DNA of 64,000 bases. It comes from Pseudomonas sp. ML96. GTDB taxonomy: Bacteria; Pseudomonadota; Gammaproteobacteria; Pseudomonadales; Pseudomonadaceae. Positions 4,191 through 13,307 of the stretch are shown one piece after another. The stretch is from positions 186,001 through 250,000 of the forward strand of contig NZ_JPMY01000010.1 in NCBI RefSeq assembly GCF_000761545.1, in the 5' to 3' direction. Under the pieces are notes generated by a model. That model was not told the origin of the DNA and made no database searches. It worked only from the letters and a program-made list of their open reading frames with translations. The position numbers and the translations under genes are program-made. How positions within the stretch are numbered: the first letter of the stretch is position 1; every line of letters starts with the position of its first letter.

Positions 4191-5252
4191 TCAGGCCTCC
4201 AGGGCGGCGATGGATTCGGCCAGCTCGCGCCACTCGACCAGCTCCGGTACGCCCGGCTTGCGCGCACCGAACAGCTGCACGACCAGCTCGCCATCGGCGT
4301 CGAAGGCCTCATAGCTGGTGATGATGCCGTCGCTGCTCGGCTTGCGTACGCGCCACAGCTCGACCACGCCCGGAGTCTTCAGGTGCAGGTTGAATTCGGG
4401 GTCGAGCACGTTGAACCAGTCGCCCATCCAGCGCAGGTTGCTTACGGTACCGGAGTGGATCTGGATGCAGTGCTGGTTGCCGACGAAGACCATGATCGGC
4501 ACCTGACGACTACCGGCTTCTTCCAGCAGTTTGGGCAGCTCAGCGGTGGCCAGCGGCTCGGCCCACTCGCGACCGGCCAGGCGCAGGGCCTGGGTACGGG
4601 CGACGTCGTGGCCCTTGAGCATGGCGAAGAAGTGGTGGGTGTCCTTCAGCTCGGCCCAGTCGGCGCGCAGAGCGGCGGCGTCCACCTCGGCGTCGGCGCG
4701 CGGCGCCTTGCGCTCGGCCAGCGGCTGCAGGTCCAGCTCGGCGCTCTGCTCTGCGACGCGGAAGCGCTCGACCAGCGGCACCCAGGCAGCCTCCTCGCTC
4801 TTGGCGGTCAGGTAGACCTTGTGCACGGCAGTGCCCTGACGGTCGAAGATCTGGATGCTGCGCTGCACGCCGCGCTCGGTGTCTTCGGCGACGGCGAACA
4901 CGCTGGCCCATTGGGTCATGAACAGGCGCAGGTCGATGTCCGGGGAAACCACCAGGCCCATGGCGCCGTTGGCCATCACCGACACCTCGCGGTAGTAGCC
5001 CTTGCGCTCGTGCACGCAATGCTCGTTGCGGGTCAGCGCCATGATGTAACCCAGCTCACCCAGCGCCGGCAGCAGCTCGGCCCACTCGGTGCGCAGGCGC
5101 ACGGCATCCACGCCCAGGCGGCTGGCGGTCAGCTCGGCCTCGCTGACGCCGAGCTTGGCAGCGGCATCACGGGCGCGCAGGCCGGACTGTTCGGCGCGCA
5201 GTTGCTGCCAGCGCTGGTAAAGGGAGGACGTGGGCTGACTGAGATTGCTCAT
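4191..5252 (-). CDS. phuS: Cytoplasmic haem-trafficking protein PhuS (HemS/HmuS family)
   Basis: This 353-residue soluble protein is made of two similar HemS/ChuX-like halves. In pseudomonads PhuS receives haem from the ABC importer and passes it to the haem oxygenase HemO. A DTHHFF motif near residues 204-209 matches the region carrying the known axial histidine, and a second conserved patch GNQHCIQIHSG lies in the C-terminal half. It is the first gene of the minus-strand operon phuSTUVW, divergent from phuR across a 210-base regulatory region. A hemO gene 7 kb away supplies the expected partner enzyme. Confidence 0.94.
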   Translation of the reverse strand: MSNLSQPTSSLYQRWQQLRAEQSGLRARDAAAKLGVSEAELTASRLGVDAVRLRTEWAELLPALGELGYIMALTRNEHCVHERKGYYREVSVMANGAMGLVVSPDIDLRLFMTQWASVFAVAEDTERGVQRSIQIFDRQGTAVHKVYLTAKSEEAAWVPLVERFRVAEQSAELDLQPLAERKAPRADAEVDAAALRADWAELKDTHHFFAMLKGHDVARTQALRLAGREWAEPLATAELPKLLEEAGSRQVPIMVFVGNQHCIQIHSGTVSNLRWMGDWFNVLDPEFNLHLKTPGVVELWRVRKPSSDGIITSYEAFDADGELVVQLFGARKPGVPELVEWRELAESIAALEA

Positions 5253-5462: not shown

Positions 5463-7679
5463 ATGTCCACCCCACCCTTCGCCTTGCGCTCATGGATGGC
5501 GCTGCTGTTGCTCAGCCCTTCGCTGGCATTCGCACAGACCACGGACAGCAACACCGAGCTCGCCCCGACTCAGGTCACCGGTAACGTCGTGCAGGAAGCG
5601 CTGCCGACCACCACCAAGACCGACGCCAAAACCCTCGAAGAGCGCCAGATCCGCAGCTTCGACGACCTCGGCAAGCGCGCCGAACCCGGCGTGAACTACA
5701 GCCGCAGCAGCGAGAGCATCAACATCCGCGGCCTGGATCGCGATCGCGTGCTGATCACCATCGACGGCATCCGCGTGCCGTGGCTGACCGACGGCGCCCG
5801 CAGCCAGGGCCCGACCGGTGGCGCTCAGGGCGGCCTCGATTCGGTCGACTTCAACGGCCTGTCCTCGGTGGACATCGTGCGCGGCTCCAACTCCAGCGTG
5901 GTCGGCTCCGGCGCCCTGGGTGGCGCGGTTCAGCTGCACACCCTCAACCCCGAGGACCTGCTGGGCAGGGACAAGGACTTCGGCAGCCTGATCAAGACCG
6001 ACTACGACAGCGCCGACAACAGCTGGGGCCTGAACGGCGCCCTCGCCGGCCGCTACCAGGACACCTCCTGGCTGCTGCAGGCCGGCCAGCGTCAGGGCCA
6101 TGAGCTGGAAAGCGGTGGCAACGACGATACCTACGGCACCAGCCGCACCGAGGCCAACCCGGCCGATACCGATCAGCAGAGCCTGCTGGTCAAGCTGCAG
6201 CAGCGCTTCGACGGCGGCCACAAGGTCGGCTTCACCGGCGAGCTGTTCCAGCGCGAGAACGACATCGATACCCGCACCGGCCAAGGCACTACCTACCGGA
6301 TCGGTGAAAATGGCACGAATGAACACACCAAGCGCCAACGCCTATCCGCTGACTACTCCTTCCGCGCGGAAGACGGCGAAAGCCTCATCGACAGCGCCAA
6401 CGCCATCGCCTACTGGCAGAAACTACGTCGTAACGATGACCAAGATGGCATCCGCCGGACGACTCCAATCGGGGCCTTTGGCCGTGACAATCAAATAGAA
6501 AAAGAGATGTACGGCATCTCTGGCGATATCGGCAAAAGTCTAGAAATCGCTGGGCTTGCGAACAAACTGACGCTGGGAGCCGAGCTCTACCAGATCAATA
6601 CCGAACAAGTCTCCGAGGGCTATGACAACTGCCCGCCGGTCTACGGCCCATTCCACACTTGCAACTTCCTGCACACCAACCAGGCGGACATGCCGAAGGC
6701 CGAAGGCACCCAGTGGGCAATATATGCCACCGACGAAATCGCTTTCGCTGATGGGCGCATCAAGCTGACCCCTGGCCTGCGCTACGACCACTACAAGCAA
6801 GAGCCAAAGGCAACCAGCGACTTCGACAACAACGTCAATCCGGCCAACGACCAGACCCTGTCGTCGACCAAGGACCACAAACTGTCCGGCAGCTTGCTTG
6901 CCACCTGGCAGGTCGCCGAAGAAGCCATGCTTTATGCGCAGTGGGCCCAGGGCTTCAAAGCTCCGGACGCCACTCAGCTGTACATGAACTACGGCGCCGA
7001 AAGTAGCTACCTGCGCCTGGGTAACACCGATCTCAAGCCAGAGGAAAGCAACGGTTACGAGATTGGCGCACAACTGGGTAACGAAAAGCTGGGCGGGTCG
7101 ATCAGTCTGTTCGACAACCACTACAAGAACTTTATCGACGATGATGTAGCAGTCGATGCGGCGACCCTTGCTGCAATCGGCCTGTCCCTATCAGATTACC
7201 CGATGGGTGTGACCCGTACCGAGAACCGCGCCAAGGTGCAGATCTACGGTGCCGAACTGGCCGCCCACTGGGAGTTCGTGCCGCACTGGAAAGTCTGGGG
7301 TTCCGTGGCCTGGGCCAACGGCGAAGACCTGCAGACCAACCAGCGCCTAAGCTCGGTAGCCCCGATCACCAGCTTGCTGGGCCTGAGCTACGAGCGCGAC
7401 CAGTACGGCGCCGACCTGATGCTGCGCGCCGCTGCGGCACGCAACAAGGTCGAGAACGATAGCGATTTCGAGGCCCCCGGCTACGGCGTGGTCGACATGA
7501 CCGGCTGGTGGCAGCCCGCAGAGCTGAAAGGCGTGAAGCTGCAGGCCGGCCTGTTCAACGCCCTGGGCAAGAAATACTGGAGCGCCCTGAACGTGCCTAC
7601 CGGCAACCTGGCTCAGCCGGACGACTACTACAGCGAGGTCGGCCGCAACTTCCGCGTCTCCGCTTCCTGGCAGTACTGA
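5463..7679 (+). CDS. phuR: TonB-dependent outer-membrane haem receptor PhuR
   Basis: This 738-residue receptor pulls haem or haemoprotein-bound haem through the outer membrane using TonB energy. It has a signal peptide ending near SLAFAQ, then a plug domain (about residues 45-165; NIRGLDRDRVLITIDGIRVPW and the IVRGSNSSVVGSGALGG segment) and a ~570-residue beta-barrel finishing on the aromatic residue of ASWQY. The FRAP/NPNL signature of haem receptors appears here in altered form (FKAPDA and NTDLKPEES). Divergence from phuSTUVW and the Fur-like box fit iron-repressed expression. The start ATG follows GGGAGTAATGCT, giving a good ribosome site. Confidence 0.93.
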   Translation: MSTPPFALRSWMALLLLSPSLAFAQTTDSNTELAPTQVTGNVVQEALPTTTKTDAKTLEERQIRSFDDLGKRAEPGVNYSRSSESINIRGLDRDRVLITIDGIRVPWLTDGARSQGPTGGAQGGLDSVDFNGLSSVDIVRGSNSSVVGSGALGGAVQLHTLNPEDLLGRDKDFGSLIKTDYDSADNSWGLNGALAGRYQDTSWLLQAGQRQGHELESGGNDDTYGTSRTEANPADTDQQSLLVKLQQRFDGGHKVGFTGELFQRENDIDTRTGQGTTYRIGENGTNEHTKRQRLSADYSFRAEDGESLIDSANAIAYWQKLRRNDDQDGIRRTTPIGAFGRDNQIEKEMYGISGDIGKSLEIAGLANKLTLGAELYQINTEQVSEGYDNCPPVYGPFHTCNFLHTNQADMPKAEGTQWAIYATDEIAFADGRIKLTPGLRYDHYKQEPKATSDFDNNVNPANDQTLSSTKDHKLSGSLLATWQVAEEAMLYAQWAQGFKAPDATQLYMNYGAESSYLRLGNTDLKPEESNGYEIGAQLGNEKLGGSISLFDNHYKNFIDDDVAVDAATLAAIGLSLSDYPMGVTRTENRAKVQIYGAELAAHWEFVPHWKVWGSVAWANGEDLQTNQRLSSVAPITSLLGLSYERDQYGADLMLRAAAARNKVENDSDFEAPGYGVVDMTGWWQPAELKGVKLQAGLFNALGKKYWSALNVPTGNLAQPDDYYSEVGRNFRVSASWQY

Positions 7680-7849: not shown

Positions 7850-7868
7850 AATAATAATTATCATTTGA
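7850..7868. promoter_or_regulatory. Fur-box-like operator upstream of the ECF sigma gene
   Basis: AATAATAATTATCATTTGA matches the Fur consensus at 13 of 19 positions. It lies 20 bases before the sigma-factor start and overlaps a possible -10 (AATAAT), with a weak TTGTGC -35 at 7826-7831. Iron would therefore control the signalling cassette through its sigma gene. Confidence 0.75.
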
Positions 7869-7887: not shown

Positions 7888-8409
7888 GTGAGCAGTTCCA
7901 ATCTCGACGCCGTCTTTGTCGCTCAGCGCACCAGCCTGCTGCGCACCCTGGCGAGAATGGTGAAGAACCCCAGCATCGCCGAAGAGCTGGTCCAGGAGAC
8001 CTACCTGCGAGTAGCGCGCACCTTGCTACAGCGTCCGGTGGAACATCTGGAACCCTTCCTTTTCCAGACCGGTCGCAACCTCGCCCTCGATCACCTGCGG
8101 CGCCTGCGCATGCAATCGCGCACGCTGATGGAGGATGTCTCCGACGAGGAACTGCAGGCCGTGCCCTCCAGCGCTCCTACGGTCGAAGAAGGCCTGCATG
8201 CAGAGCAACTGCTCGAGCGCCTGGGTTCCACGATCGAGCGTCTGACCCCACGCCAGCAGCAGATCTTCATCCTCAGCCGCCTGCATGGCTGTGGCTATGC
8301 CGAGATCGCCGAGCAGCTCGGCGTGTCGTCGAGCACCGTGCAGAAAGAGCTGAAACTGATTATGGCCATCTGCTTTGACCTGCTGGCCCGCCTGGACCAG
8401 CCAACGTGA
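7888..8409 (+). CDS. ECF sigma factor of FecI/HasI/HxuI type
   Basis: This 173-residue sigma-70 family protein has only regions 2 and 4. Region 2 spans about residues 8-75 (LVQETYLRVART, then FLFQTGRNLALDHLRR) and region 4 about 105-165 (LTPRQQQIFILSRLHGCGYAEIAEQLGVS, helix-turn-helix). FecI-type sigmas are released when an outer-membrane receptor senses its ligand and they then transcribe the receptor gene. Here a FecR-type anti-sigma and an STN-containing haem receptor follow directly, so haem is the probable signal. The start is GTG at 7888; an in-frame ATG is not available nearby, and the ribosome site is weak. Close to HxuI or HasI, but which orthologue cannot be settled here. Confidence 0.9.
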   Translation: MSSSNLDAVFVAQRTSLLRTLARMVKNPSIAEELVQETYLRVARTLLQRPVEHLEPFLFQTGRNLALDHLRRLRMQSRTLMEDVSDEELQAVPSSAPTVEEGLHAEQLLERLGSTIERLTPRQQQIFILSRLHGCGYAEIAEQLGVSSSTVQKELKLIMAICFDLLARLDQPT

Positions 8410-8470
8410 CAGGCTACCCATCCGCTATCCCCTGGACGACAATAGCCATCCCCGTCCCGAGGATTCCGGC

Positions 8471-9427
8471 GTGACCGTCCCATCCCAGCAACCCGCAGCC
8501 GATCACGAGTGCCTATCCCAGGCGCTGGACTGGTTGATTCGCCTGGACGATGCCGACGAGACCACCCGCGCCGAGTTCGACGCCTGGCTGCAAGCCAGCG
8601 AAGAAAATGCTCGCGCCTACCGGCAAGCCAGCCAGATGTGGGGTTCGCCGCTGCTCGGCGCAGCCGCCTCCGGGCTGAATCAAATCAACCAGCAGCGCCA
8701 ACGCCGTCGTCGCCGCGTGACCCGGCGCGCCGCAGCGTCTGCCGCCGCTCTACTGCTGAGCATCGCCGGCGTGCTGCAGAGTGATCTGCCACAGCGCCTG
8801 CAGGCCGACCATGTCACAGCCGTGGGCCAGCGCCAGCAATTGCAACTGGCCGACGGCTCACGTGTGTTACTCAACACCGATACCGCGCTAGCCAGCCAGA
8901 TGGATGACTACCGCCGCAGCACTCGGCTGCTGTACGGCGAGGCCTACTTCAACGTGGCCCATGACCATAGCCGCCCGTTCGAAGTGGAGGCCGGGCCGGT
9001 GCAGGTCAGCGTGCGCGGCACTGCATTCGCTGTGCGCTACCTGGATGACGAAGCCGAAGTCAGCGTAGAGCGCGGCGAAGTCGACCTGCGCACTCCGCGT
9101 GGTGACACCAGCATCAGCCTCGGCGCCGGCGATAGCATCCGCATCGGCCCAAACGGCTTCGGCCCGCGTCGGCACAAGCCGCAGGAGCAGTCGCCGCTGG
9201 CCTGGGTGCAGGGCCGCCTGGTGTTCGAGAACTGCCCTCTGCATGAAGTGCTCGCCGAACTACGGCGCTACTACCCCGGCTGGATCGTCAACACCGACGA
9301 ACGCCTGGCCAACCTCAGTGTCACCGGCAACTACCGTCTGGATGATCCCGTTGGCGCCATGCGCTCGTTGGCCCTCGTCACTTCGGCCCACCTGCATGAA
9401 CTGCCCCGCGTACTGATCCTCGACTGA
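8471..9427 (+). CDS. FecR-family anti-sigma factor, haem-receptor cassette
   Basis: About 318 residues. The N-terminal cytoplasmic domain (DUF4880-like: ALDWLIRLDDADETTRAEFDAWL) would hold the sigma factor. A single membrane segment follows an RRRRR-type stop (around residues 85-105), then the periplasmic FecR domain (VGQRQQLQLADGSRVLLNTDTAL) and a C-terminal STN-like part that touches the receptor's signalling domain. The frame is open upstream to 8375, but GTG at 8471 was chosen because GAGGA lies 7 bases before it and the domain begins immediately. It sits between its sigma factor and receptor, the usual order for such cassettes. Confidence 0.9.
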   Translation: MTVPSQQPAADHECLSQALDWLIRLDDADETTRAEFDAWLQASEENARAYRQASQMWGSPLLGAAASGLNQINQQRQRRRRRVTRRAAASAAALLLSIAGVLQSDLPQRLQADHVTAVGQRQQLQLADGSRVLLNTDTALASQMDDYRRSTRLLYGEAYFNVAHDHSRPFEVEAGPVQVSVRGTAFAVRYLDDEAEVSVERGEVDLRTPRGDTSISLGAGDSIRIGPNGFGPRRHKPQEQSPLAWVQGRLVFENCPLHEVLAELRRYYPGWIVNTDERLANLSVTGNYRLDDPVGAMRSLALVTSAHLHELPRVLILD

Positions 9428-9463
9428 CCCGTTCACCATCGCCGCAAAGATTTCCGAAGTTTT

Positions 9464-9494
9464 TTTACGCGCTTCGCTGCACTCGTTCGTTTCG
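9464..9494 (+). promoter_or_regulatory. Candidate ECF-sigma promoter of the haem receptor gene
   Basis: The block begins TTTACGCGCTT and ends in a TTCGT-containing element. It matches the block upstream of hemO (12232-12262) at 22 of 31 positions without gaps. The conserved halves are spaced like the -35 and -10 elements of an ECF promoter, about 60 bases before the receptor start. Assignment to the neighbouring sigma factor is inference. Confidence 0.5.
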
Positions 9495-9554
9495 TTAAAT
9501 GCCAATGCTATTAATTCGCATTAATAGACAAATAACGACCAGAAGAGAGCTCCG

Positions 9555-12167
9555 ATGCCCGCCCCCTCCCGACGCTCCACCCTCGATCGCCTGCGCGCAC
9601 CGACTGCCCTGTCGCTGCTGACTCTGTCCATCGCCGTGGCATTCGTACCGGCCACCCAGGCCGTGGCCGCCGAGACCAACGCCCAGGCCGAAGCCGGTTT
9701 CCGCTTCGATATCCAGCGCCAGCCGCTGAACAGCGCGCTCAACGCCTTCAGTGCGGTCACCGGCTGGCAGGTGGGCCTGCAGGCGGATCTGGCCGAGAAC
9801 GTCACCTCGCCGGGCGTCAACGGCACTCTTCCAGCCGAACAGGCCCTGCATCGCCTACTCGCCGGCAGCGACCTGGATTTCGTCCAGGTTGGACCGAACA
9901 ACGTCGTACTGCAGCGCATCCCGCGTAGTGAGGCGTTTGAGCTGCAACCGCAGACCATCACGGCCACCCTGCACGCCCGTGACCTCGACGATGTACCGGT
10001 CACCGTCAGCGTTCAGGATCGCGCCAGCCTCGACCGCAACAACGTCAACGACATCAAGGAATTGGTGCGCTACGAGCCTGGCGTGTCGGTCGGCGGCACC
10101 GGCCAGCGCTCCGGGATCACCGGCTACAACATCCGCGGTATCGATGGTAACCGCGTGTTGACCCAGGTCGATGGCGTCGAAATCCCAGCCAGCTTCTACT
10201 ACGGCCCCTACGCCAACACGCAGCGCAACTATGTCGACCCGGAGATCATCAAGCGCGTAGAAGTCCTCCGCGGCCCGGCCTCAGCCCTGTATGGCAGCAA
10301 CGCCATCGGCGGCGCGGTGAGTTACTTCACCCTGGATGCCAGCGACATCATCAAGGACGGCAGCGACGTCGGCGCCCGCCTGAAGACCGGCTACAGCTCC
10401 GCCGACGACAGCTGGCTGAAATCGGCCACCGTTGCCGGCCGCCAGGGACAGTTCGACGCCCTGTTGCATCTGTCCCGTCGTGACGGTCATGAGACCGAGT
10501 CTTACGGTAATGACGGCGGCATCGGTCTGGCCCGCACCGAAGCCAACCCCGAAGACGTTCGCACGACCAACGTCCTGGCCAAACTGGGCTGGAACTACAA
10601 CGACAGTGACCGCCTGCAGTTGACGTACGAAAAATACAAGGACGACCGCGACAGTAATCAACTCAGCGCCGTCGGCGGGCCATTCAACGCCCCGACCATA
10701 GGTGCGGGACAGAATTACTACGCAGGTCGCAGCGGCAATGACACCATCACCCGCGAGCGCTTCGGCCTGGCGCACAGCCTGGCTCTGGACAGCCTGCTGG
10801 CCGACAGCCTGGAGTGGAGCCTGAACTACCAGATTGCCAAGACTGACCAGAGCACCCAAGAGCACTACACCGCCAGGAACTTCTTTACGCAGGCCATCAC
10901 CCGCGACGTGATGCGCTATCGCAGCACCGACTACAAAGATCGCCAGTGGGTACTCAACGCCCAGCTGGACAAGGCCTTCACTCTGGGTGAGACCGATCAC
11001 CTGCTGACCTACGGCCTCAGCCTCAAACGCCAGGATGTCACCGGCCAACGCAGCGGCTACGGCGTGTGCCTGCGCGCCCTGAGCGTCAACTGTCCCACCG
11101 CTGGCGCGATCAGCAACAATACGGCCGATACCCTCACCACCCAGAGCGACTTCCCGGATCCGACCGTGGATGTCTACGGCGTATTTCTGCAAGACGAAAT
11201 CCGCTGGAACCAGTGGACCTTCCTGCCAGGCCTGCGCTACGACCGCACCAAGCTCAAACCCGAGCTGACCGACGAGTACCTTGCCAGTGCTGTAGCAGGC
11301 AGCACCTTCGAGGCCACTGAAGAGAGCAAGACCTGGCAACGTGTTTCACCCAAGCTCGGTGTCACCTACGCTTTCGATGAAAGCTACACCGGCTTCGCCC
11401 AGTACGCAGAAGGCTTCCGCACACCTACGGCCAAGGAGATGTATGGCCGCTTCCGAAACAGCAACCCGCCCTACATCGTGGAGCCCAACCCGAACCTCGA
11501 CCCGGAAACCAGCCGCAGCCTGGAAGCCGGTCTGCGCGGCAATTTCGATGGTGGCAACTTCAGCCTGGCCGTGTTCTACAACCGTTATCGTGACTTCATC
11601 GACGAGGATGCCGTGGGTGCAACTGGCGGCCTAACCGTGTTCCAGAGCCGCAATATCAGCCGCGCCAGCATTCGCGGGGCGGAAGCCAAGGGCCGCCTGA
11701 ACCTGGACAACTTCGGCGCCCTGCCAGGGCTGTACACCCAAGGTTCTATCGCCTATGCCCGTGGTCGCGACGAGGAAACCGGCGAACCGCTAAACAGCGT
11801 GAATCCGCTGACCGGCGTTTTCGGCCTGGGCTACGAGCAGGAGCGTTTCGGCGGCCTGCTGAACTGGACATTGGTCAAACACAAGAGCCGCATCGACCAC
11901 AGCGGCTTCAACTCCCCGACCGGCGACGGCAGCCAGTTCGCCACGCCCGGCTACGGCATCCTCGACCTGAGTGGCTACTACAAGCTGAGCGACGACCTGA
12001 CTGTCAACGCCGGCCTGTACAACCTGACCGACAAGAAGTACTGGCTGTGGGATGACGTGCGCGGCTACGACGGTAACGGCGAGGCTGGCGTAACGGCCCC
12101 CGCCAACCTCGACCGCCTGACCCAGCCGGGCCGCAACTTCTCCATCAACCTGGTGTGGGACATCTGA
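9555..12167 (+). CDS. TonB-dependent haem receptor with signalling (STN) domain, HxuA/HasR-like
   Basis: An 870-residue transducer-type receptor. A long signal sequence ends around AVAAE (residue ~40). The STN domain that contacts the FecR protein spans about residues 50-115 (FDIQRQPLNSALNAFSAVTG). The plug follows from about 135 to 260 (NIRGIDGNRVLTQVDGVEIP, VEVLRGPASALYGSNAIGG), then a ~600-residue barrel ending NLVWDI. The haem-receptor signature is clear: FRTPTAKEMY followed by PNPNLDPETS, the FRAP/NPNL pair. It should both import haem and signal its presence to the sigma/anti-sigma pair upstream. No hemophore gene (hasA) is adjacent, which argues for an Hxu-type rather than a complete Has system. 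Confidence 0.9.
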   Translation: MPAPSRRSTLDRLRAPTALSLLTLSIAVAFVPATQAVAAETNAQAEAGFRFDIQRQPLNSALNAFSAVTGWQVGLQADLAENVTSPGVNGTLPAEQALHRLLAGSDLDFVQVGPNNVVLQRIPRSEAFELQPQTITATLHARDLDDVPVTVSVQDRASLDRNNVNDIKELVRYEPGVSVGGTGQRSGITGYNIRGIDGNRVLTQVDGVEIPASFYYGPYANTQRNYVDPEIIKRVEVLRGPASALYGSNAIGGAVSYFTLDASDIIKDGSDVGARLKTGYSSADDSWLKSATVAGRQGQFDALLHLSRRDGHETESYGNDGGIGLARTEANPEDVRTTNVLAKLGWNYNDSDRLQLTYEKYKDDRDSNQLSAVGGPFNAPTIGAGQNYYAGRSGNDTITRERFGLAHSLALDSLLADSLEWSLNYQIAKTDQSTQEHYTARNFFTQAITRDVMRYRSTDYKDRQWVLNAQLDKAFTLGETDHLLTYGLSLKRQDVTGQRSGYGVCLRALSVNCPTAGAISNNTADTLTTQSDFPDPTVDVYGVFLQDEIRWNQWTFLPGLRYDRTKLKPELTDEYLASAVAGSTFEATEESKTWQRVSPKLGVTYAFDESYTGFAQYAEGFRTPTAKEMYGRFRNSNPPYIVEPNPNLDPETSRSLEAGLRGNFDGGNFSLAVFYNRYRDFIDEDAVGATGGLTVFQSRNISRASIRGAEAKGRLNLDNFGALPGLYTQGSIAYARGRDEETGEPLNSVNPLTGVFGLGYEQERFGGLLNWTLVKHKSRIDHSGFNSPTGDGSQFATPGYGILDLSGYYKLSDDLTVNAGLYNLTDKKYWLWDDVRGYDGNGEAGVTAPANLDRLTQPGRNFSINLVWDI

Positions 12168-12177
12168 CCCACGCCTG

Positions 12178-12234
12178 AACGCCCCGTCCCGGCCGTTGCC
12201 CACACGCAGCGAACGGGACGGGGCGTTGTCGTTT
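12178..12234 (+). terminator. Hairpin terminator after the haem receptor
   Basis: The stem is a perfect 14 bp (AACGCCCCGTCCCG / CGGGACGGGGCGTT) with a 22-base loop, but only a broken T-tract (TTGTCGTTT) follows. It lies 11 bases past the receptor stop. Confidence 0.6.
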
Positions 12235-12262
12235 ACGCGCTTTGCCCACCTTATTCGTCACG
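12232..12262 (+). promoter_or_regulatory. Candidate ECF-sigma promoter of hemO
   Basis: It repeats the TTTACGCGCTT start and the TTCGT element seen before the receptor gene at 9464-9494, at the same spacing. It ends 35 bases before the hemO ATG. No Fur-like box is seen between the receptor and hemO, so control through the sigma factor would be the route to iron and haem regulation. Confidence 0.5.
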
Positions 12263-12297: not shown

Positions 12298-12879
12298 ATG
12301 AGCACCCTGCGTTCCCAGCGTCTAAATCAGGCCACCCACGCCCCTCATGCGCGCCTCGACAGCACCGTCAAGGCGCAAGACCCGTTCTCCAGTCGCGAGA
12401 ACTTCAGCCCCTTCGTTCAGGCCCAATACCTGTTCCAGTCCGAACTGCAGGCGCTGTATCAGAACGCCGAACTGATCGCCACCTTCCCCGACCTCGCCGC
12501 CCGCTGCCGCGCCCGCCAGGCCGAGGCCGACCTCGCTGACCTCGGCGCCGCCGTACCGGCTGCAGTAGAGGGTGCTCCTGCCAACCTGTCGCGCGCCGAA
12601 GCCCTGGGTTGGCTGTTCGTCTCCGAGGGCTCCAAGCTGGGCGCCGCCTTCCTGATCAAGCGCGTCGCCGCGCTGGGCCTGACCGAGACCTTCGGCGCTC
12701 GCCACTTGGCCGAGCCGGAAGGCGGTCGCGCCGCGGGCTGGAAGCTGTTCACCCACACCCTCGACGCCCTGGAGCTCAGCGAAGAAGAAGACCGCGCGGC
12801 AGAGGCCGGCGCCCTGGCGGCCTTCGAGCGCTTCGCCGACCTGCTGCAACACAGCTACGCCCAGGCCAAGGCTGCTTGA
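12298..12879 (+). CDS. hemO: Haem oxygenase HemO/PigA family
   Basis: This 193-residue protein should open the haem ring to biliverdin, CO and Fe2+ with electrons from a reductase partner. The fold match is extensive: SQRLNQATHAPHARLD at the start, QAQYLF, GWLFVSEGSKLGAAFL, GARHLAEPEGGRA. His17 corresponds to the proximal haem ligand of P. aeruginosa HemO, and Asn10 and Lys25 line up with residues linked there to cutting at the beta/delta rather than alpha position; this residue mapping is by eye. It lies behind its own candidate promoter, downstream of the haem receptor, and overlaps the next gene by 4 bases. PhuS upstream is the expected haem donor. Confidence 0.93.
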   Translation: MSTLRSQRLNQATHAPHARLDSTVKAQDPFSSRENFSPFVQAQYLFQSELQALYQNAELIATFPDLAARCRARQAEADLADLGAAVPAAVEGAPANLSRAEALGWLFVSEGSKLGAAFLIKRVAALGLTETFGARHLAEPEGGRAAGWKLFTHTLDALELSEEEDRAAEAGALAAFERFADLLQHSYAQAKAA

Positions 12880-13307
12880 ACCACGCCCCACGCTCGCGCC
12901 TGGTGCGCCTGCTCTATGCCCTGCTGGCCTACACCTCCCTCGGTGTCGGCCTGGTGGGGCTGGTGCTGCCCGGCCTGCCGACTACCGAGTTCGTGCTGCT
13001 CGCCGCCTGGGCCGCCTCACGCAGCTCGCCACGGCTCAGCCAGTGGCTGGAGAATCACCGCCTGTTCGGCCCGATCCTGGCCAACTGGCGTAACGGCCGG
13101 GCCATCGCCCGCCGCGCCAAGCTCGCCGCCAGCGCCTCGATGCTGATGGCCCTGGCGATCATGCTGCTCACTCTGCCCCACGGTTACTGGCTGTATGCAG
13201 TGATCGCCGGCATGGCTGTCGGCAACCTGTGGATCTGGTCGCGTCCCGACCGCAATGCCGAACCCTCCCCGCTCCTGCCGCCAGTTAGCGTGCATCCCGA
13301 CGCCTGA
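12876..13307 (+). CDS. YbaN-family (DUF454) inner-membrane protein
   Basis: About 143 residues with the DUF454 signature LGVVLPGLPTTEFVLLAAW-like text (GLVLPGLPTTEFVLLAAWAA). Membrane segments lie around residues 12-35 and two lie near 85-125. The start is uncertain: TTG at 12876 overlaps the hemO stop (TTGA) and has AAGG upstream, whereas GTG at 12903 gives an N-terminus (MRLLYALLAY) closer to E. coli YbaN. The family's function is unknown. In several bacteria it sits beside haem-utilisation genes, and here the overlap with hemO suggests co-translation. Confidence 0.8.
   Translation: MNHAPRSRLVRLLYALLAYTSLGVGLVGLVLPGLPTTEFVLLAAWAASRSSPRLSQWLENHRLFGPILANWRNGRAIARRAKLAASASMLMALAIMLLTLPHGYWLYAVIAGMAVGNLWIWSRPDRNAEPSPLLPPVSVHPDA

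Follow-up and report, generated by a model that had tools for sequence, protein, structure and literature searches.

We analysed a stretch of 64,000 nucleotides from Pseudomonas sp. ML96, referred to here as the window. On its plus strand lie a gene for a FecI-type ECF sigma factor (7888-8409; Pfam Sigma70_r2 and Sigma70_r4_2, i.e., regions 2 and 4), an adjoining gene for a FecR-type anti-sigma factor or sigma regulator (8411-9427; Pfam FecR, DUF4880, and FecR_C), a gene for a TonB-dependent haem receptor with a PhuR-like barrel (9555-12167; Pfam STN, Plug, and barrel), and hemO, which encodes a haem oxygenase (12298-12879; Pfam Heme_oxygenase). The start of the FecR-type gene at 8411 was chosen inside an open frame that spans 8375-9427. 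The N-terminal STN signalling domain of the receptor (PF07660) covers residues 73-121, and HemO matches P. aeruginosa pa-HO (PDB 1sk7) with an E value of 1e-66. The parts of a FecI/FecR/FecA-type system are present: the ECF sigma factor, the adjacent FecR-type regulator, the STN receptor, and a predicted Fur box before the sigma gene. Downstream of hemO are a gene for a DUF454 membrane protein and then one for a Rieske protein. The DUF454 gene (12876-13307) overlaps the hemO stop, and it still adjoins hemO in three other genomes (G009, G178, and G114) in which the receptor gene is not upstream of hemO.

The window also carries a phuS-type haem-binding protein gene (4191-5252, minus strand; Pfam HemS). 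This is the first gene of an ABC haem-transport operon that reaches to about position 1504, with Peripla_BP_2, FecCD, and ABC_tran following HemS. Another haem receptor, only distantly PhuR-like, is encoded at 5463-7679. The earlier note on this DNA had labelled that gene phuR. This label is doubtful because the sigma-linked receptor at 9555 is closer to the solved PhuR structure (8the), with a match of 1030 bits, compared with 228 bits for the receptor encoded at 5463-7679.

The earlier note had described two blocks, one before the sigma-linked receptor gene (9464-9494) and one before hemO (12232-12262), as agreeing without gaps at 22 of 31 positions. The described match is confirmed. In dinucleotide-shuffled pairs of the two intergenic regions, a 22/31 match was seen in 2 of 2000 cases and a common word of at least 11 bases in 7 of 2000; the longest word common to the two real intergenic regions is TTTACGCGCTT. 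Both the window and the whole 4.8-Mb genome contain exactly two copies of the pattern TTTACGCGCTT-N11-TTCGT, which is thus unique to the two blocks. Even with up to 2 mismatches allowed, no further match was found genome-wide.

Of 200 sampled genomes of the genus, 158 had a HemO relative, and for 60 of the 158 we took the 5 kb upstream. The order sigma, fecR, receptor, hemO was found in nearly all of the 60 genomes. Receptor upstream regions contained TTTAC-N19-CGT(C/T) in 53 of 59 cases and a form with an 18-base spacer in 2 of 59; the corresponding counts for hemO upstream regions were 45 and 6 of 60. In named Pseudomonas loci (n = 80), the motif stood before the receptor gene in 80 of 80 and before hemO in 73 of 80, and shuffled upstream regions carried it in 0.3 to 1% of cases. 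None of 75 named loci had it before the sigma gene. The core motif also occurs in other genera of Pseudomonadaceae. Seven named relatives have the sigma factor and a linked hemO with no hemO site, and several of these are of the P. corrugata type (P. corrugata, P. thivervalensis, and P. kilonensis). Most of the seven gaps (L199, L200, L205, L208, L212, L213, and L218) hold long repeat-like inverted repeats, which stand in place of the terminator and promoter.

The functional core is narrower than had been drawn, consisting of a T-run with TTTAC, a 19-base spacer, and CGT(C/T). The 11-base left element named in the earlier note is indeed present in both blocks, but its conservation across species is limited to TTTAC, and the GCGCTT portion is largely local. 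The predicted ECF promoter of the receptor gene spans 9460-9491 on the plus strand, with a -35 T-run and TTTAC at 9460-9468, N19, and a -10 CGTT at 9488-9491. The predicted hemO promoter spans 12232-12259 on the plus strand, with a -35 TTTAC at 12232-12236, N19, and a -10 CGTC at 12256-12259.

A strong hairpin, the probable terminator of the receptor transcript, lies at 12178-12227 on the plus strand (MFE of -44.1 kcal/mol for 12168-12240; z score, -4.85). Among named loci, 45 of 73 hemO upstream regions had a strong hairpin ending immediately ahead of the T-run, versus 0 of 80 receptor upstream regions. Because the hairpin abuts the T-run in these 45 regions, the T-tract of the receptor terminator doubles as the -35 T-run of hemO in most relatives. 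At hemO in the window, the strong hairpin goes with a short T-run of three T residues. We rejected the idea that the T-run is a mere terminator tract, since none of the 80 receptor sites follows a hairpin and since the -10 element of hemO (CGTC), along with its spacing, shows conservation as tight as that of the T-run.

These features bear on an alternative in which read-through from the receptor promoter is the sole source of hemO transcripts and the second block is a relic, either of duplication or of the terminator T-tract. In favour of read-through, the receptor gene and hemO have the same strand and order, and the corrugata-type species do without a separate hemO site. So do two genomes with very short receptor-hemO gaps (G147 and G162), which suggests that the receptor gene and hemO are co-transcribed there. 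Against read-through in general stand the strong hairpin that ends the receptor transcript, the equally tight conservation of the -10 element and spacing, and the persistence of the site where no receptor gene lies upstream of hemO. In G178, hemO is divergent from, and adjoins, the sigma gene, and the site is retained, facing hemO. In G009, hemO does not share a contig with the sigma and receptor genes, and it too retains the site. We consider it very unlikely that hemO depends on read-through only.

We built a receptor-only model on 29 receptor promoters taken from other genomes, excluding window sequence and all hemO promoters. Applied to the whole genome, this model found only two sites, those of the receptor gene (30.6 bits; E = 1.6e-6) and hemO (13.7 bits; E = 0.38). 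The E value for hemO is modest alone; its weight comes from being the second and last match. We also merged 50 sites of receptor genes and hemO, all from outside the window's clade, into a combined matrix. With this matrix, the receptor promoter scored 40.2 bits and the hemO promoter scored 17.7 bits, and no position on either strand of 5 Mb of simulated sequence reached 11.6 bits. Across the 972 kb of named loci, only the receptor and hemO promoters scored at least 8.

The receptor model was run on 25 genomes. All 14 genomes with the sigma factor had a match (12 of the 14 at an E value of 2.1e-5 or better), whereas the 11 genomes without it had no match better than an E value of 0.33. G114 has HemO, with no sigma orthologue at an E value of 1e-25 and no site. 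In G319, whose HemO is 98% identical to pa-HO, the window sigma factor has no orthologue at an E value of 1e-40, and hemO is not preceded by a site. The PhuR-like receptor of G319 aligns only from residue 126 onward; i.e., the STN part is absent.

That the site tracks the presence of the window sigma factor across genomes argues against a second alternative, in which another sigma factor reads the block, or a different regulator binds it, and the adjacent ECF factor is uninvolved. The query has 12 additional sigma-factor matches in the genome, and hemO is also lowered 7- to 8-fold in ecf5 and ecf6 mutants of P. syringae B728a; however, the effect of deleting ecf7 is the largest by far, at 220-fold (PMC3597554). 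The probability of this second alternative is slighter still than that of read-through. A chance likeness of two T-rich intergenic stretches might be entertained from this genome alone, where 2 of 2000 shuffles do as well, but it is already refuted by the conservation of both sites in well over 100 genomes.

The earlier note had expected the ECF sigma factor to read the receptor promoter and suggested that it also controls hemO. Several findings support its reading both promoters: the conservation of the sites throughout the family, the two sites returned by the receptor-only model, the retention of the hemO site after relocation of the gene, the lack of the site where there is no sigma factor, and the P. 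syringae mutant data and cited ChIP-seq work (PMC3597554). We conclude that the adjacent sigma gene almost certainly encodes the factor that reads both promoters.

A Fur-box-like site lies before the sigma gene (7850-7868, minus strand). It matches the Fur consensus at 14 of 19 positions, a level that 0 of 500 shuffles reached, and the predicted box matches at 14 to 16 of 19 positions in 75 relatives. A weak Fur-like block is found just downstream of the receptor promoter (9501-9519, plus strand; 12 of 19 positions), and 73 of 80 relatives also have 12 of 19 there. Upstream of hemO, the best Fur match was 8 of 19, no better than shuffles, in agreement with the earlier statement that no Fur-like box precedes this gene. 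Lacking such a box, hemO would follow iron indirectly, with iron acting through the sigma gene. For the receptor gene, the predicted sites point to iron control that is perhaps exerted both through the sigma gene and through its own weak Fur block.

Taken together, the two blocks are very probably promoters for one Fur-controlled FecI-type sigma factor (7888-8409) that is switched on via STN and FecR and drives both the receptor gene and hemO. At low iron, Fur would leave the sigma/fecR operon. The receptor STN domain and FecR would activate the sigma factor, presumably upon binding of haem to the receptor. The sigma factor would then transcribe the receptor gene from the 9460-9491 promoter and hemO from its own promoter just past the receptor terminator, with the DUF454 gene behind hemO probably in the same transcript. 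The STN signalling domain and FecR suggest that external haem is the activating signal, and we infer the transcript starts in Pseudomonas sp. ML96.

According to the earlier note, nothing similar to the blocks precedes phuR or the sigma gene. This is correct for these two genes, but a weaker possible site with the same 19-base spacing (TTTCC-N19-CGTC) is present on the minus strand at 5325-5294, ~41 bases before the divergent phuS-type gene. A hemO-derived model, for which 18 hemO promoters were taken from other genomes, found the receptor site, the hemO site, and this third site (13.3 bits). With the combined matrix, the third site scored 11.6 bits, and the next best site in the window scored -0.6. 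The third site deviates at a base that is invariant elsewhere, the receptor model run at full length misses it, and the two nearest phuS-bearing relatives lack this site. Among nine other phuS upstream regions, a site facing phuS was found in G249 only, so that the phuS site was not upheld as a conserved regulon member. The G249 match (19.8 bits; L282 2724-2685, minus strand) lies between a Rieske gene and phuS; in this distant genome, hemO is not beside its receptor gene. A 22-bit match in G301 (L279:3736) falls, by alignment, inside a receptor coding region, and isolated scores of that size can therefore be accidental. The phuS match in G167 (L281) has one in-frame TAA, and phuS may be broken there. 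The site before phuS is thus a possible, not an established, target of the sigma factor. Tentatively, and with the balance tilting against it, the sigma factor of Pseudomonas sp. ML96 might also drive the phuS operon via 5325-5294; the result would be a three-promoter switch for capture, inner-membrane transport, and degradation of haem. In most relatives, the shared T-tract between the receptor gene and hemO would likewise build termination and re-initiation into one sequence.

The locus shares its three-part cell-surface signalling design with FecI-FecR-FecA of E. coli, for which the ligand is ferric citrate. The window proteins do not reach the FecI/FecR equivalog cut-offs. In P. aeruginosa, HxuI-HxuR-HxuA represents FecI-type haem signalling with the receptor gene beside the sigma gene, as in the window. 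The published HxuI motif is MTGAAWRACDWKKTTTWKCADTCGCRWWT (PMC8768829). We rejected the possibility that the window promoters correspond to this motif, since the window sites, compared by eye, are without the TGAA element of the published consensus. HurI-HurR-BhuR of Bordetella includes a haem-responsive, Fur-controlled ECF factor that drives the haem receptor operon bhuRSTUV (PMC3792355). By description, its design resembles that of the window system; it differs in its described target, the bhuRSTUV operon.

Ecf7/PSPTO_1286 of P. syringae is like the window system in gene order and in its two target genes, and we found no difference in kind. In strain B728a, the order is ecf7 (Psyr_1107), fecR (Psyr_1106), receptor (Psyr_1105), and hemO (Psyr_1104), and deletion of ecf7 lowers hemO 220-fold and the receptor gene 166-fold (PMC3597554). 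The regulon determined by ChIP-seq of PSPTO_1286 includes hemO and the receptor gene, as cited in the same paper. At low iron, hemO of B728a is up 427-fold, in a medium whose description has added FeCl3 and no haem (PMC3597554); hence, strong sigma-dependent expression in P. syringae may be possible without added haem. P. viridiflava and P. maioricensis, which belong to the P. syringae group, carry both the receptor site and the hemO site. Judged by gene order and family, the window sigma factor is an apparent orthologue of Ecf7.

The link between the sigma factor, hemO, and the receptor is already proven experimentally in P. syringae; it is real, and it is not a new kind of system. What our analysis gains over the P. 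syringae work is refinement and generality. A P. aeruginosa-like genome (G319), which lacks both the sigma orthologue and the site, provides a contrast. The predicted arrangement accounts for iron control of hemO without a Fur box of its own, and the promoter is now defined precisely, as T-run and TTTAC, N19, and CGTC, across the genus for a sigma factor that is probably haem responsive.
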